From the NCBI GenBank assembly GCA_016712865.1, contig JADJQH010000002.1:1178001-1242000 (forward strand): DNA of 64,000 nucleotides, read 5' to 3'. Positions 21,932 to 28,768 of this stretch are shown here, piece by piece. Every line of letters starts with the position of its first letter. The first letter of the stretch is position 1. Source of the DNA: Dokdonella sp. (GTDB taxonomy: Bacteria > Pseudomonadota > Gammaproteobacteria > Xanthomonadales > Rhodanobacteraceae). The position numbers and the translations under genes are program-made. The notes beneath the pieces were generated by a model. It ran no database searches, had not been told where the DNA came from, and was given only the letters and a program-made list of their open reading frames with translations.

Positions 21932-22615
21932 ATGTGTGGACGTTACTCCAACCACTATCGCTGGGCCGACGTGCATGCGTTTTCGACTGGCCTTGAATTG
22001 AGCACGCCGGCGCAGGACCCGGAACCGGCCTACAACTTCGCTCCAACCCAAATCGGCTGGGTGCTCACTGCGAACGATGAGGGTGGCGGCAGTGCCCATG
22101 CGATGCGCTGGGGAATCATCCCGGCCTGGGCCAGGGACACGCGCATCGCCTGGAACACCATCAATGCACGCATTGAAACCGTGGCCAGCAAACCCGCCTT
22201 CCGCGCCGCGTGGCGCGCGCGACGTTGCCTGGTGCCCGCATCCGGCTACTACGAATGGCCGGGCGAAGGTCGCGCCAAGCAACCGTTCTACATTCATCCG
22301 GCCCGCGCACCGATCCTGATGTTTGCCGGACTGTGGGAGCGCTTCACTCCAGCCGATGCGGAAGCCGTGGAGACCTATTCCATCATCACCATGGACGCGG
22401 CCGGCCCACTCGCTGAGCTGCATGACCGCATGCCGCTGATGCTGCCCGCCGAACTTCATCAGGCATGGCTTTACGGATCGGCGGATGAGGCCATGAACAT
22501 CGCGCACGCCGCGCCCCTGCCTGAGGTGCGCTGGCATGCCGTCGGCAAGGCGGTGGGCAATGTGCGCAACCAGGGACCTACCTTGATTGAACCCATCGCC
22601 GACCCTGCACGCTGA
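21932..22615 (+). CDS. SRAP domain protein (HMCES/YedK family)
   Basis: 227 residues beginning Met-Cys-Gly-Arg-Tyr. Cys2 is the nucleophile that crosslinks to abasic sites in single-stranded DNA. The other active-site residues are visible: Asn in INARIET, Glu in YYEWPG and His in LHDRMP. The family shields abasic sites at replication forks from strand cleavage and reverses the crosslink. It lies 17 bp after the ETF-QO gene and may be cotranscribed with it. ATG at 21932. Confidence 0.93.
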   Translation: MCGRYSNHYRWADVHAFSTGLELSTPAQDPEPAYNFAPTQIGWVLTANDEGGGSAHAMRWGIIPAWARDTRIAWNTINARIETVASKPAFRAAWRARRCLVPASGYYEWPGEGRAKQPFYIHPARAPILMFAGLWERFTPADAEAVETYSIITMDAAGPLAELHDRMPLMLPAELHQAWLYGSADEAMNIAHAAPLPEVRWHAVGKAVGNVRNQGPTLIEPIADPAR

Positions 22616-23401
22616 TCACCGCCGCGAGGTAAAGCCGAGCTTGCTCGGCTTGGTCTGCGATGTTGCGTTGAGCGCAGCAAGCTGCGCTCTACATGCGGTT
22701 GTAGAGCCGAGCTTGCTCGGCTGCCATCGTGCGTCAAATTGGAAGCGGAGCAAGCTCCGCTCTACAAGAACCGCGGAGGTTCGAAGCCTGGGCAGAGCCG
22801 AGCCTGCTCGGCTTGGTCTGCGATGTTGCGTTGAGCGCAGCAAGCTGCGCTCTACAAGGGACGGCCAACGGCAGGCTGATCGGTGTACCCGGATCCCACC
22901 ACGGTAGAGCCGAGCTTGCTCGGCTGCCATCGTGCGTCAAATTGGAAGCGGAGCAAGCTCCGCTCTACAAGAACCGCGGAGGTTCGAAGCCTGGGCAGAG
23001 CCGAGCTTGCTCGGCTTGGTCTGCGATGTTGCGTTGAGCGCAGCAAGCTGCGCTCTACAAGGGACGGCCAACGGCGGGCTGATCGGTGTTCCCGCATCTC
23101 ACCTCGGCAGAGCCGAGCTTGCTCGGCTTGGTCTGCGATGTTGCATTGAGCGCAGCAAGCTCCGCGCTACAAGAACCGCGGAGGTTCGAAGCCTGGGTAG
23201 AGCCGAGCTTGCTCGGCTTGGTCTGCGATGTTGCGTTGAGCGCAGCAAGCTGCGCTCTACAAGGGACGGCCAGCGGCGGGCTGATCGGTGTTCCCCGATC
23301 CCGCCTCGGTAGAGCCGAGCTTGCTCGGCTGCAATCATGCGGCAAGCACCCAGCGGAGCAAGCTCCGATCTGCAAAGCGGCTCCCAACCCAAAACCGGAA
23401 A
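22616..23401. repeat. Array of 16 alternating AGCTTGCT/AGCAAGCT palindromes
   Basis: From 22634 to about 23367 there are 16 small hairpins, strictly alternating between GCCGAGCTTGCTCGGC and either GCGCAGCAAGCTGCGC or GCGGAGCAAGCTCCGC. Each pair is bounded by (G)TAGAGC...GCTCTAC, so the array reads as eight inverted doublets. Blocks repeat with a period of about 213 bp (22702 and 22915), together with shared spacer text such as TTGGTCTGCGATGTTGCGTT. The core is constant while the stem bases change on both sides together. Related units are at 44384-44602 and 51832-51898. No gene is seen. Confidence 0.88.
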
Positions 23402-25117
23402 TCAGGGTTCGAAACCATCCGCAAAAATCACGTCGGCATCGGGCAGCACCAGCAGGTTGGCGGAGCGTGCCGGCATGTTGCTGACCGCAATCGTCGAGCC
23501 GTTGATGTTGCCCGAGGCAACCTGGGCCAGATCGCTGGTGCCACTGAAGCGGTACAACTTCCAGGGACCGGCCAATGACGTGCCGAGATCAAGGTTGGCG
23601 GTGGTGGATGTGGTTGCCTTGTTGAACAGCAGGATCATCACGCGCTGGCCGGGCGCGTGCACCGCATAGGCGCCCAGCGCATCGACATCGGAGCTTATCG
23701 CGCGCGTGCTGAATCCTTGCACGCGACTGCCTTGGCCGTCGTAGTCCAGATACAGCCGGAATGCGCGCTCCACCAGGGAGCCGCTGTCTGGCATGACCCA
23801 ACGCGCGGCCGCATCCACTCCTTCGCGGGCGAAGATCGCCAACGCCTCGGCCTGGGCCAGCGCGCTGCTGGCGCCGTTGTCGGCACCCCAGTTGTATTCG
23901 GTGATGGCAAGGCGCGTGCCGGGGCATTCCTCGTCGATCCAGGCGCGCACGCGCGGAATCAAATTGGGGCGGCTGTAGTGCCAGGTTGGATCGTTGCCGA
24001 GATCGGCAACCCAGGATTCCGACTCCCAGTTGGCGTCGTAGAGTTCCTTCAGCGAGCGCAGGCGACGGGCGGAAACGGTGGCGGTTTCCGAGCCGTTGGG
24101 CGGGTCGGAGAAATCCACCACGCCCTGCCCTTGCGGGTAGTAATGCAGATCGAGGACATCCACCAGACGCACGCCGTTCTGCGCCTGGTACTCGCAGACC
24201 TTGCCGAGATACCACTTCACGAACGGCTTGCCCTCGTGCGCCTCGCGGTCGCTGCCGTCGACGCAATTGTCGGCAGCCGATCCGAACAGGTCGCAGTAGC
24301 CCCAGGTCACCGGCCCGAACACCTGTGCTGCCGGATCCTGCGCCTTCACGGCACTTGCATAGGCTACCGTGCGCTGCCAGATCTCGTCGTAGGTCAGCGG
24401 TTGCGGATGCACGTCGCGATGGGTGGAATTCCACAGCATCGGTTCGTTGTCCAGCGCGTAGTTGCGGACGCCGCCATTGGCTGCGCTGCCAAAGGTCTGC
24501 TGCAGATGGCCAACCCAGTTGCGCATCGTCTGCGGCGTGGCGACATCGGAGGTATCCAGCGGATCGTTGTTGACGATCACGCCCGACGAATTGCAGAACT
24601 GGGTCTGGTTCTGCGCCGGATTGCACAATCCATTGCCCGCATCGGCGGTGCACCACGTCGGCGGATCGTTGCCGAAGTAGCTGCACTCGTCCTGCAACTG
24701 CGGGCCATACTTGATCCGGGAAAATCCCCATCGCTTCTGCTGCACCGGCTTGGCGATGTAGCCGATCGTGGTCAGGGTGACCAGCGGATGCGCATCCGCC
24801 GCAAGGGCGGCACCGATGCCTGCCTCGAACGACGAGGCGGCGGGCGTGCCGTCGCCGTCCGGGATGTTCATGAAGAACCAGTCGCCGGCCGTGTTGTGCA
24901 CATCGGCTTGCCAGTTGTAGCGCGTGGTCGAGTTGCCTCCCCAGCGCACCAGCGGATAGGCAACCTGCTGGAAGTTGGGCCAGCCGCTAACGCCGAAGAT
25001 GTCGGGGCTCAGTGCGCGGCGGTCGAGATCCAGATCGACGCTGACGGGTACGGTCGCCGCCAATGCGCCACCGGAAAGGGCAGACCAGAGCACAAGCAGC
25101 AAGGCAGGCTTTCGCAT
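23402..25117 (-). CDS. Secreted glycoside hydrolase family 44 (endoglucanase/xyloglucanase-like)
   Basis: 571 residues with a signal peptide (about 1-21). GH44 hallmarks: PLVRWGGNSTTRYNW near the N-terminus; the acid/base Glu at about 225 in YALDNEPMLWNSTHRDVHP; the nucleophile Glu at about 407 in RLAITEYNWG; and DVLDLHYYPQG between them. A beta-sandwich follows the TIM barrel. GH44 enzymes cleave beta-1,4-glucans and xyloglucan outside the cell. The last residues are DADVIFADGFEP, a tag shared with the 42262 protease. Eight or more cysteines in the 140-190 region suggest disulfides. ATG at 25115-25117 gives a clean signal peptide; a TTG three codons upstream is possible. Confidence 0.88.
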   Translation of the reverse strand: MRKPALLLVLWSALSGGALAATVPVSVDLDLDRRALSPDIFGVSGWPNFQQVAYPLVRWGGNSTTRYNWQADVHNTAGDWFFMNIPDGDGTPAASSFEAGIGAALAADAHPLVTLTTIGYIAKPVQQKRWGFSRIKYGPQLQDECSYFGNDPPTWCTADAGNGLCNPAQNQTQFCNSSGVIVNNDPLDTSDVATPQTMRNWVGHLQQTFGSAANGGVRNYALDNEPMLWNSTHRDVHPQPLTYDEIWQRTVAYASAVKAQDPAAQVFGPVTWGYCDLFGSAADNCVDGSDREAHEGKPFVKWYLGKVCEYQAQNGVRLVDVLDLHYYPQGQGVVDFSDPPNGSETATVSARRLRSLKELYDANWESESWVADLGNDPTWHYSRPNLIPRVRAWIDEECPGTRLAITEYNWGADNGASSALAQAEALAIFAREGVDAAARWVMPDSGSLVERAFRLYLDYDGQGSRVQGFSTRAISSDVDALGAYAVHAPGQRVMILLFNKATTSTTANLDLGTSLAGPWKLYRFSGTSDLAQVASGNINGSTIAVSNMPARSANLLVLPDADVIFADGFEP

Positions 25118-25444
25118 ACGTTTCAACCCGGAAGTGTCGGGAAACGGTAGCAGGGTCTGCGGCGGACCAAGGCGGCGGATTTCACAGTTCGTCGCCGTGC
25201 TTTGGCCAGCGGCGCAGGTCGAACCAGGGGATGGGTGGAGCGGAGGGGAATGGCAGTTTCGAAATCTCTCCCTGCGCTGGGCAGACCGCAGGGAGAGGAG
25301 TTCGAATTACTGAATGCACCCAAGGTCTTCTGAACTCACCTTATTGTGCATTTGGCCGGTACTGGCCTGCATCAAACCAACCATGCAGGTGACCCGGCAA
25401 AGGGGTTGACCGCCAGCAGACAGTCACCCCGGCAACAGCGTTAC
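25118..25444. other. Gap with an 11-bp stem hairpin
   Basis: Between the MetJ-like gene's stop and the GH44 start. CTCTCCCTGCG at 25266-25276 pairs with CGCAGGGAGAG at 25287-25297 around a 10-base loop. There is no T-run on either strand, so it may be a rho-assisted terminator or an operator for the GH44 gene. No gene is seen. Confidence 0.5.
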
Positions 25445-25879
25445 TTACTTCTTTGCAGCCTTCTTTGCAGTCTTCTTCTTTGCAGCTTTCTTGGCCGGAG
25501 CCTTCTTCACGGCCGCGGAGGTCTTCGCCTTGGCCGTCTTCTTCTTGGCAGGAGCCTTCTTGGCTACTGTCTTCTTGGCTGCCTTCTTTGCAGCCGGCTT
25601 CTTTGCAGCGGGTTTCTTCTTTGCAGTTGCTTTCTTGGTTGCCATATCGCGTCTTAGCTCCTCGTCAGTTGGCAGTGGTTGCCCAGTAAAAGCGTGAAGA
25701 AATGCTTCGCACAGCAGATTGCTGTTTGTAGCGTGACGCAGGTTTGCTACCTGGCGTCGTGTCCGTTCATCGGACAAAAGTCGAAGTACATGCAGCGGAA
25801 TCGATACCGTGATTTTTCTTGCGGCCGAAGATTTGAGGCCGTGTTCGATATAGGGATCGATGAATCTGGGTGAAGCCAT
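25445..25879 (-). CDS. MetJ-like ribbon-helix-helix repressor with lysine-rich H1-like tail
   Basis: 144 residues in two parts. Residues 5-78 match E. coli MetJ almost line for line: the DNA-contacting strand RKITVSIP, helix A with [20 protein letters not shown], and [21 protein letters not shown], which includes the segment lining the S-adenosylmethionine pocket. From about residue 80 the normal MetJ C-terminus is replaced by 64 residues holding 29 lysines in KKA/AAKK/PAKK steps, like histone H1 and AlgP-type tails. AAGGA lies six bases before the ATG at 25877-25879. MetJ proper represses methionine biosynthesis genes with SAM as corepressor; the tail should add non-specific DNA binding. The assignment as a MetJ homologue is strong; the physiological role is inference. 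Confidence 0.88.
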
Positions 25880-25917
25880 GATTCCTTTTTCATGTCCGTA
25901 GTGTTACTGCGGCGAAA

Positions 25918-25944
25918 ATTATTCCTGTCGCGTGCGCGTGTCAA
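25918..25944 (-). promoter_or_regulatory. Candidate sigma-70 promoter of the MetJ-like gene
   Basis: On the minus strand TTGACA (25939-25944) is followed after 15 bases by AATAAT (25918-25923). The spacer is short, but both hexamers are near consensus in a GC-rich genome. The predicted start near 25910 would leave a 30-base leader. Confidence 0.5.
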
Positions 25945-26052: not shown

Positions 26053-26068
26053 GGACGTCTATACGTCC
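26053..26068. promoter_or_regulatory. Tandem met-box-like site
   Basis: GGACGTCTATACGTCC reads as two adjacent 8-base units (GGACGTCT, ATACGTCC) matching the MetJ operator unit AGACGTCT at 7 and 6 of 8 positions; the preceding octamer GGCCTTCT matches at 5. It lies 174 bases upstream of the MetJ-like start, in the same non-coding stretch, and about 110 bases upstream of the candidate -35. GACGTC alone is common by chance in such DNA, so this is suggestive only. Confidence 0.4.
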
Positions 26069-26574: not shown

Positions 26575-26970
26575 TCAATCGTCTTCGTTTTCGATCAGTT
26601 CCGCATAGGCATCGGCGTCCAGCAGTTCCTCAAGCTCTGCGCGATCGCTGAGCTTGACGACGAAGATCCAGCCATCGCCGTAGGCATCCTCGTTGATGGT
26701 CTCGGGCCTGTCGCTGAGCGACTCGTTGACGGCAACGATCTCGCCACTGACTGGCGAGTACACGTCCGATGCGGCCTTGACCGACTCGACGACGGCCGCA
26801 GCCGTGCCTGCCTGGGCGGTATCGCCGACATTCGGCAGCTCCACATACACGAGGTCGCCAAGCAACCCCTGCGCGTGATCGGAGATTCCGACCGTCGCGG
26901 TGCCGTTGTCTTCGACGCGCACCCACTCGTGGGACTTCAGGAAATTCAGATCGCCGGGTATTTCTTTCAT
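26575..26970 (-). CDS. gcvH: Glycine cleavage system H protein
   Basis: 131 residues, the normal length. The lipoyl-lysine sits in [15 protein letters not shown] at about residue 65, and the N-terminal [22 protein letters not shown] block is typical. GcvH carries the aminomethyl group between the P, T and L proteins in glycine breakdown to CO2, ammonia and methylene-THF. ATG at 26968-26970 begins [16 protein letters not shown]; five upstream codons to 26985 are also open. It follows gcvT on the same strand by 99 bp. gcvP is not in this window. Confidence 0.96.
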
Positions 26971-27069
26971 GGCTGCATTCCGCAATGAGTCAAGGTTCAG
27001 GTTGGGTACGACGCGGTGATTCTATCAGCAGGTCGGCACCGGCAATCATCGGCATCGGGTCCGTGCGGG

Positions 27070-28152
27070 TCAGGCCGATACCGCCTGGCCTTCCCGAACG
27101 AAGGGAACCTTGACCACGCGCACGGGGACTTCCCGTCCGCGGATGTCCACGCGCACGGAGCCTGGCTCACCCGCCGGGACGCGCGCAAACGCAATGGCCT
27201 TGCCGAGCGTGGGCGAAAACGTGCCGGAGAGGATTTCGCCCTGGCCGTGATCGGTCAACACGGCTTGGCCATGACGCAGCACGCCCTTTTCGTCCATGAC
27301 GATTCCCACCATGGCGCGACCAACGCCGCCATCACGCTGCGCCTGCAACGCGGCGCGACCGATGAAGTCGCGCTCCTCGTCCAGCGCCACGGTCCAGCCA
27401 AGGCCGGCTTCCCAGGGCGTGATCGTTTCATCCATGTCCTGGCCGTACAGGTTCATGCCGGCCTCCAGGCGCAGGGTATCGCGCGCGCCGAGCCCGGCCG
27501 GAGTCACGCCCGCCGCCAGCAGCTTGTTCCACAGATCGACCGCCGCAGTTTCCGGCACGATGATCTCGAAACCGTCTTCGCCGGTGTAGCCGGTGCGCGC
27601 AATGAAGAGCTCCTCGCCAGGCAGCGCGACGAACTTGCCGAGCTTGAGCGCCGCACCCGCCGCCTCCACTGGCAAAACGGAGGCCGCCTTGGTGCGTGCC
27701 TGCGGCCCCTGCACGGCAATCATCGCCAGGTCGCTGCGTTCACGAACCGAAACGCCGAAGTGACCTGCGTGCCGGTTGATCCACGCCAGGTCTTTCTCGC
27801 GGGTCGAGGCATTGACCACGGTGCGGAAGTGCGACTCGTCGATGAAATACACGATCAAGTCATCAATCACCCCGCCTTGCTCATTGAGCATGCAGGAATA
27901 GAGCGCCTTGCCCGGCTTCTTGAGCTTGCCCACGTCGTTGGCAAACAGGAATCGAAGGAATTCGCGGGTGCGTGGGCCTGCAAGATCGACCACGGTCATG
28001 TGCGAGACATCGAACATGCCGGCGTCGCGTCGCACCGCATGGTGTTCTTCGATCTGCGAACCGTAGTTGAGCGGCATGTCCCAGCCGCCGAAATCGACCA
28101 TGCGTGCACCGAGCGCACGGTGCGTATCATTGAGTACTGTCTTGCGGGTCAT
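27070..28152 (-). CDS. gcvT: Glycine cleavage system aminomethyltransferase (T protein)
   Basis: 360 residues. Typical blocks are [83 protein letters not shown] and, at the C-terminus, G(K)AIAFARVPA. It transfers the methylene group from the H-protein arm to tetrahydrofolate. ATG at 28150-28152 begins MTRKTVLND; upstream in-frame codons come from repeat DNA. Probably cotranscribed with gcvH. No glycine riboswitch fold was recognised ahead of it. Confidence 0.96.
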
Positions 28153-28768
28153 GGCAATGGGCCTGTCGGGGAGTCGCCGATTATAGGCAATCGGCACATT
28201 CCGAAGCTCGGCCTTCCCGCCCAGCCTTCGACTGGCTTGTATGTTGGCTTCCGACCTCCGCCCCTCACCACGATCGGGATCAGTGGCGTGGCCCGGATGA
28301 AGCGCAGCGCAATCCGGGATAGGTTTCGCTCTTGGCCGCTCGAAGAATGCGCGGATGTTGGCACGAGGCCGTTCATGGTTCGACGAGCTCACCACGAACG
28401 GGGCTTGGGAGCTCACCACGAACGGAATTTTTGCTCAGAGCTCGTTGACCGGCAACATGGAATCTCAGGACAGGCCCTCCCACTCGCTCAAGACGAACGG
28501 GGACAGGCAATTCCGTTCGTGGTGAGCCAGAGCCTGTCCTGAGCTTGTCGAAGGGAACCATGAACGGATCGCAAAACCACCCGCTCATCCCTGGATGCTC
28601 AAGACGAACGGGGACAGACAACTCCGTTCGTGGTGAGCCCGTCGAACCATGAACGGCTCTCACCCCCTCCGTTCGTGGTGAGCTCGTCGAACCATGAACG
28701 GATCGCAAGGCCACCCGCTCATCCCTGGATGCTCAGGGCAGATCCTTCGTCGCGCGGGATCAAACAGC
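28153..28768. repeat. Cluster of dispersed repeats upstream of gcvT
   Basis: It contains one GCCCGGATGAAGCGCAGCGC-type palindrome (28291-28319) and at least five full or partial copies of the TTCGTGGTGAGC...TCGAACCATGAACGG repeat in both orientations (about 28373-28445, 28505-28565, 28620-28655 and 28668-28700). A duplicated linker (CCACCCGCTCATCCCTGGAT) occurs near 28578 and again near 28712. Open frames here are repeat translations (for example VRGELVEP), not genes. Confidence 0.82.

Follow-up and report, generated by a model that had tools for sequence, protein, structure and literature searches.

Genes that yield two products from one reading frame by way of an internal in-frame start are known, cheA with its long and short forms being an example. 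Lysine-rich tails of the histone H1 type on folded domains are known as well: AlgP and PhaF of Pseudomonas have H1-like C-terminal domains made of KPAA repeats, as described in the accessible part of PMC9239181. The methionine repressor MetJ was reported for six other gammaproteobacterial groups in the accessible part of PMC4239095 (Leyn et al. 2014), where four Xanthomonadales genomes had SamR and were without MetJ. Here we describe a locus of Dokdonella sp., a member of this order, found in a 64,000-nucleotide stretch of contig JADJQH010000002.1 that is called the window below. Its subject is metJ::H1, an open reading frame (ORF) on the minus strand which encodes a genuine MetJ, responsive to S-adenosylmethionine (SAM) in the known systems, joined in frame to an H1-like tail. 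From sequence comparison we consider it probable that an H1-like gene, in frame and equipped with a ribosome-binding site (RBS) of its own, is nested within this metJ, and that tailed MetJ and free H1 would be made from one promoter. Literature searches returned no description of a MetJ-H1 fusion or of an H1-like gene beside gcvH, which is not proof of absence in print; they likewise gave no match for such a join in a SAM-sensing repressor, for its conservation throughout a family or for stand-alone genes with a similar leader.

Below, f1 denotes the family of the window genome and f2, f3, f6 and f12 other families of the same order; G and L labels denote genomes and loci. The parts of the fusion gene are:

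25445..25879, minus strand: metJ::H1 fusion ORF (MetJ core plus lysine-rich tail), 144 amino acids (aa)
25646..25879, minus strand: MetJ core, residues 1-78, a ribbon-helix-helix repressor matching PF01340, the NCBIfam MetJ equivalog and 1cma
25445..25645, minus strand: nested in-frame H1-like ORF, 66 aa plus stop, 29 lysines, computed pI 11.4, with stand-alone H1-like genes in f2, f3 and f6
25643..25645, minus strand: proposed internal start codon ATG, fusion codon 79, first base 25645, proposed from codon conservation
25658..25663, minus strand: GAGGAG, proposed as Shine-Dalgarno (SD) sequence for the nested ORF; spacing to the ATG 12 nt
25650..25693, minus strand: synonymously frozen block, 44 nt, covering the last 14 codons (-14 to -1) ahead of the tail plus two bases of the next codon

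MetJ with an H1-like tail

The initial annotation had aligned the N-terminal part of the protein with E. coli MetJ, and profile searches bore this out. Pfam MetJ PF01340 matches residues 5-88 (E 3.3e-38, 130 bits, cut-off 25), the NCBIfam MetJ equivalog NF003622 gives 134.3 bits (cut-off 110), and Protein Data Bank (PDB) entry 1cma, the E. coli Met repressor, matches residues 4-87 (E 5.5e-33). The ribbon-helix-helix core, KITVSIP included, is like that of E. coli MetJ, and 30 core columns are identical across 20 tailed sequences (the window included) and 13 tailless ones, E. coli among them; our assignment of core residues to DNA contact and to the SAM pocket is an assumption. An AlphaFold monomer model built from an alignment was of insufficient quality (pLDDT 55, pTM 0.22; the dimer was modelled as a monomer). 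Unlike E. coli MetJ, the fusion is without the E. coli C-terminal segment and carries the 66-aa lysine tail in its place. The 29 lysines that the initial annotation had counted in the last 64 residues were confirmed, and residues 79-144 (computed pI 11.4) contain no aspartate or glutamate (D/E).

In its composition, rich in lysine and alanine and nearly free of acidic residues, the tail resembles stand-alone bacterial H1-like proteins (NF038053; Chlamydia HC2, PF07382). The window protein scored 19.8 bits against NF038053 (cut-off 80) and 15.1 against PF07382 (cut-off 40), and a stand-alone f3 protein 43.4 and 36.8, respectively; because these scores lie under the curated cut-offs, membership of the H1 family is not claimed. 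Three f2 proteins gave no NCBIfam match and one f2 protein no Pfam match. The tail appears to work like a bacterial H1-like protein and is a putative DNA binder. By analogy it would bind DNA as the tails of AlgP and PhaF are thought to, and like them it is a lysine-, alanine- and proline-rich extension of a folded N-terminal domain (PMC9239181, accessible part). The differences lie in the host domain, here a SAM-responsive repressor, in a start and leader belonging to the tail itself, and in the occurrence of stand-alone versions in other families.

Within a 60-genome sample MetJ was found in 36/36 f1 genomes, the window genome included, versus 2/24 belonging elsewhere in the order. The initial annotation had proposed a search of MetJ homologues for lysine tails by taxon. 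Over the whole f1 set MetJ is present in 227/233 genomes (226 above cut-off) and in 26/26 genera, and in the 82 f1 loci read the frame continues into a lysine-rich tail (L033, L136 and L145 are cut by the contig end). A class-level sample had MetJ in 5/369 genomes, and the three of these outside f1 have frames of 112-118 aa. The remark in the initial annotation that methionine control in Xanthomonadales is ascribed to other regulators agrees with the accessible part of PMC4239095, with SamR in its four genomes and MetJ in none. Named tailed records are Dyella silvatica, Dyella japonica and one Rhodanobacter metagenome-assembled genome (MAG), to which four unplaced MAGs are added; f1 is on this ground very probably Rhodanobacteraceae. 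Tails not cut by a contig end hold 26-46% lysine and 0-2 D/E residues. Their length is very variable within f1, from 35 to 310 residues (for example L144 and L171 of G173, L011 and L169), which suggests fast repeat expansion.

The two f12 MetJ proteins are tailless, 79 aa long, and end in TDEELARPE or TDQELARPE, written in ordinary codons. At one f12 locus (G055:C6; L159, L247) gcvH is preceded on its own strand, at a distance of about 1.4 kb, by the tailless metJ, a hint that the proximity of these two genes goes far back in the order. It was also observed that in several genera (L160-L165, L167) helix A of MetJ has changed from DERTRRQV to DLRTHRQV, DLRTERQV, DLRTYRQV or DLRTSRQV with the frozen block kept; operator or dimer-dimer contacts may differ in these genera.

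The junction of the two coding parts

The junction was compared in 75 distinct sequences out of the 82 loci, one row cut by a contig end and 6 duplicates having been removed; L033 and L136, which were kept, have truncated tails. The codon that opens the tail is ATG in 74/75 and GTG in 1/75, a single change on the tree. It falls no more than 2 codons from the ...LRR end of MetJ, within an otherwise variable linker. The 14 codons before the tail, GCT TTT ACT GGG CAA CCA CTG CCA ACT GAY GAG GAG CTR AGA, are nearly fixed despite the many spellings allowed. On a tree built from upstream codons, third-position changes per codon amount to 2.86 in the block versus 13.19 upstream; codon homozygosity is 0.83 versus 0.52, and GC content at third positions (GC3) 0.40 versus 0.70. 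GAG occupies the two SD codons in 74/75 and 75/75 sequences. The constraint extends past the ATG, the first tail lysine being AAG in 73/75 and the second AAA in 68/75; elsewhere in the tails AAA accounts for 350/2464, and the second-lysine rows are related, with 5 changes on the tree. In a control set of 73 MetJ loci from other Gammaproteobacteria (72 seen to be tailless, 1 masked) the same codons vary freely.

The 33-mer core of the block has a single site in the window genome. With up to 3 mismatches it was found in 124/125 f1 genomes versus 0/273 others of the order. The exception to the block, G014 (L028), has other codons and a GTG start and keeps its tail. Messenger RNA from -45 to +21 has a minimum free energy (MFE) of -10.2 kcal/mol versus -16.1 kcal/mol for synonymous recodings and is thus less structured; in 23/29 sequences no more than 5% of the recodings were less structured than the native junction. 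A conserved SD sequence and a conserved start codon are present inside a longer ORF, the arrangement expected of an internal in-frame start. From this conservation, together with the stand-alone genes with similar leaders described below, we infer initiation at ATG 25645 and the existence of both products.

Several other explanations of the block were tried and rejected. A Hammerhead-II ribozyme match scored 17.2 bits against a gathering score of 37, was absent among the matches of 18 relatives and rests on MetJ codons that vary, so it was put down to chance. Inspection revealed no sensibly spaced -35 and -10 elements of an internal promoter, and the upstream codons vary. A programmed +1 frameshift at the conserved TRA was dismissed, also on inspection, with no slippery codon seen and TRA missing in L012 and L177. 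A pause at rare codons would not account for the fixation of particular codons, CTG and GAG among them.

Stand-alone H1-like genes and the common leader

The features upstream of the fusion gene are:

25915..25944, minus strand: sigma-70-like promoter of metJ::H1, TTGACA-N14-GAATAATTTT
26053..26068, minus strand: GGACGTATAGACGTCC, a pair of Met boxes resembling a MetJ operator, located 108 bp upstream of the -35
26575..26985, minus strand: gcvH (PF01597), upstream neighbour and synteny anchor
27070..28419, minus strand: gcvT (PF01571), second upstream neighbour

Genes resembling the tail stand on their own in three other families. A tail-start pattern was run on 65 genomes (60 of them outside f1) and gave seven matches in six genomes: two metJ::H1, three stand-alone H1-like genes with the leader and two other proteins (L184, L185). 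The lack of a match elsewhere carries little weight, since this pattern missed G000, G022 and G018. The stand-alone genes belong to two f3 genomes and one f6 genome; they are separate lysine-rich ORFs of 126, 173 and 108 aa without metJ, placed after TTTCACTGGGCAACACACACAACCACTAACGAGGAGCTAAGAC or GTCTGGGCAACCTCAACCCACTGACTTAGAGAGGAGCTGAGAC. A combined leader pattern, CTGGGCAAM...GAGGAGCTRAGAC...ATGGC, was present in 109/398 genomes of the order (f1 105/125, f3 3/3, f6 1/1, elsewhere none), and reversed-pattern controls gave 0; in this exact form it is unfit for f2 leaders and missed 20/125 f1 genomes. A protein search with the tail over 160 genomes of the order returned the window genome only; it missed known tailed genomes such as G005, and so failed its positive controls, and the negative of another tail search, made on the window genome, is weak for that reason too.

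The separate genes, like the fused one, sit beside gcv genes. The window has gcvT-gcvH-metJ::H1, f3 has gcvT-gcvH-H1 (L221, L222) and f6 gcvT-gcvH-gcvPA-H1 (L220, gcvPA recognised by eye). When loci were anchored on gcvH (30 genomes, 29 matched), a lysine-rich ORF followed gcvH in 9/10 f2 loci and in the f3 locus; the tenth f2 locus, L230, stops inside the leader. The next gene is gcvPA in the f1 exception G014, likewise in the f6 genome, and 16 loci from eight other families had no lysine-rich ORF within the stretch read. The nine f2 stand-alone proteins contain 40-45% lysine and no D/E. The initial annotation had taken the tail for an arm of the repressor; in that simple form this reading is not supported, since the tail comes with a conserved start codon and a leader of its own and H1-like genes with similar leaders stand alone in three other families.

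The promoters of f1 metJ genes read TTGACA-N14-GAATAATTT or close, and those of the stand-alone H1 genes TTGACA-N14-GATTAGTTT or GATTAGGTT or close, with the same hexamer and spacing; 9/10 f2 loci have the pattern. From TTGACA to the ATG of H1 the distance is 291-299 nt in five f1 loci, 279-283 in three f3, 256 in the f6 and 313-407 in eight f2 loci. Leader measurements used 8/10 f2 loci, leaving out L230, which ends in the leader, and L237, where the promoter pattern was unmatched. CTGGGC is present in every one of the 17 aligned leader ends (as ACTGGGC in 15), as is an ACTGAC-like step, followed by GAGGAG before ATGGC (GAGGAA in L225). Between the purine run and the ATG lie 6-8 nt in eight f2 genes, which is normal SD spacing, 11-12 in f3 and f6, and 9 or 12 in f1.

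One f2 leader, L238, reads in frame as LVTGQSEPTDEELT-MATKKAAKK and so resembles the C-terminus of MetJ (TGQ..PTDEEL); in its congener L228 the corresponding place is out of frame. Since tailless f12 MetJ has a similar end by itself, it is likelier that the leader end derives from the metJ 3' end than that the match arose by chance. On these comparisons f2, f3 and f6 have probably lost metJ and kept H1.

Met boxes, proposed mechanism and rival explanations

Putative Met-box pairs are found upstream of metJ and of a metX-like/metB-like gene pair, as in E. coli. Counting was done on 73 f1, 8 f2, 3 f3 and 1 f6 sequences, after omission of those without the promoter pattern, with less than 200 nt upstream or identical to others. 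A pair with up to 3 mismatches starts 100-137 bp upstream of the metJ -35 in 67/73 f1 sequences versus 0.9% of mononucleotide shuffles; upstream of stand-alone H1-like genes such pairs occur in 0/8 f2, 0/1 f6 and 2/3 f3, in f3 at other positions. These are likely to be Met-box operators of MetJ, still putative, and their conserved position suggests that the MetJ of f1 is a working repressor. Elsewhere in the window genome a perfect site lies 146 nt upstream of the metX-like/metB-like pair (gene names partly by eye), a second perfect site falls inside a dnaG-like coding sequence, and a 2-mismatch site lies between cysB-like and cysG-cysK-like genes (Pfam, names partly by eye). Sites with up to 2 mismatches numbered 28 versus 40 for the reversed-pattern control and so are not commoner than expected from it.

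Two further observations concern such sites. An extended Met-box-like array, AGTATGGACGTCYAAACGGCT, is common to two distant loci of the window genome: L119 (box 2773-2788), between the cysB-like and cysG-cysK-like genes, and L120 (box 2904-2919), 29 nt before a secreted-looking ORF. In f3 loci L221 and L222 a CGTCTAGACG palindrome resembling the core of a Met-box pair lies just upstream of the -35 of the H1 promoter; MetJ was not found in the genomes bearing it in the 60-genome MetJ search.

The mechanism that we propose for the window is as follows. The metJ and H1-like genes share a promoter and a reading frame. Initiation at 25879, where the open frame is observed, would give SAM-responsive MetJ with a lysine-rich arm, 15.7 kDa in all, and a second initiation at ATG 25645, by way of the GAGGAG at 25658-25663 within metJ, would give a free H1-like nucleoid protein of 6.8 kDa. 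MetJ-SAM would control the promoter through the upstream Met boxes, and the supply of both products would in that case follow SAM. This coupling differs from the SAM-dependent nucleoid binding considered in the initial annotation: SAM may control, through MetJ and Met boxes, a promoter that also supplies an H1-like protein. As to history, the H1 ORF would have originated beside gcvH, either at the 3' end of metJ or overlapping that end. The metJ coding sequence would then have disappeared from three other families, in which promoter, leader end and H1 remained, and f1 would have kept both genes, fused. The arrangement is like that of cheA long and short in having one frame, two products and a second start within the first gene; it differs in its second product, the like of which other families encode in a complete gene of its own and which is here attached to a repressor unrelated to it.

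A number of observations weigh against this proposal. A position 100-137 bp upstream of the -35 is unusual for a repressor operator. TTGACA promoters are generic, so that their likeness is supporting evidence and weak alone. The spacing between SD and ATG is longer in the fused genes (9 or 12 nt) than in f2 (6-8), and the f2 leader L237, outside the 17, has GAGGAG 7 nt from its ATG without ACTGGGC or ACTGAC. The genus of G014 (L028) lost the block, has GTG and keeps the tail, and a tail is thus retained without such a leader. The lower structure of the junction results partly from low GC3, and the SD-ATG segment is hardly more open than in recodings (0.49 versus 0.46 unpaired). Finally, no RBS rule accounts for the conservation of ACTGGGC, whose position is well upstream of the SD.

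This last point bears on the reading of the frozen block as a cis-acting RNA element for the H1 part, such as a binding site for a regulator or small RNA or a processing site, in place of a plain RBS. Such an element would suit the division of the conserved sequence into ACTGGGC and ACTGAC-GAGGAG by a spacer that varies across families, with the upstream part too distant from the start for a simple SD; yet nothing in the regions searched with Rfam reached its gathering score, no match over the block recurred, and only a weak 4-bp GGCA/TGCC hairpin appears over the block in some folds. We regard an RNA element as somewhat unlikely; as it would control H1 it implies that H1 is made, and is compatible with internal initiation. 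Less probable still is that the fusion alone is made, its lysine arm raising non-specific DNA affinity and local operator search, and that the frozen codons serve, for example, a pause before the tail. This explanation accommodates the open frame across the junction, the conservation of MetJ core and Met boxes, the preponderance of non-preferred codons in the block (GC3 0.40) and the retention of the tail without the block in G014. It does not account for the keeping of exact codons, CTG and GAG included and not just rare ones, for the conserved ATG, or for similar nucleotides before the ATG of stand-alone H1-like genes that lack metJ.

A different history could also be envisaged, in which an H1 gene and its leader are the older element and metJ entered that leader in f1, the leader rewriting the C-terminus of MetJ. 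Stand-alone H1 is found in more families (f2, f3, f6) than the fused form, and apart from their 3' end the leaders of f2, f3 and f6 show no similarity to MetJ by eye. However, the leader of one f2 genome, read in frame, gives TGQ..PTDEEL, tailless f12 MetJ already has a similar end in ordinary codons, making a chance match unlikely, and the stand-alone distances from TTGACA to H1 (256-407 nt) are close to the fused ones (291-299). On this evidence we think the reverse order of events unlikely.

The remaining neighbours of metJ::H1 were also noted. The next gene downstream encodes a glycoside hydrolase family 44 protein (23402-25126, minus strand; PF12891, 226 bits). Beyond it, at 22701-23375, is a tandem array of 3.3 copies of a 203-bp unit with 88% matches; the ORF upstream of the array, at 21932-22615, is SRAP/YedK-like by eye.

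Returning to the nested gene, the locus would join the genes of a metabolic repressor and of a chromatin-like protein, unrelated to each other, in one frame with a conserved internal start. MetJ is at the same time added to a family of Xanthomonadales, an order with none in the accessible part of PMC4239095. A broader interpretation, which we put forward tentatively, is that MetJ-SAM sets the supply of both tailed repressor and free H1, so that the composition of the nucleoid would track methionine and SAM with the two proteins competing for DNA, and that elsewhere metJ decayed into the leader of H1, the fossil end of the repressor serving as a translation signal. The finding suggests a route by which a 5' leader may descend from a lost coding gene, and it offers a testable link between the level of SAM and the supply of a nucleoid protein.
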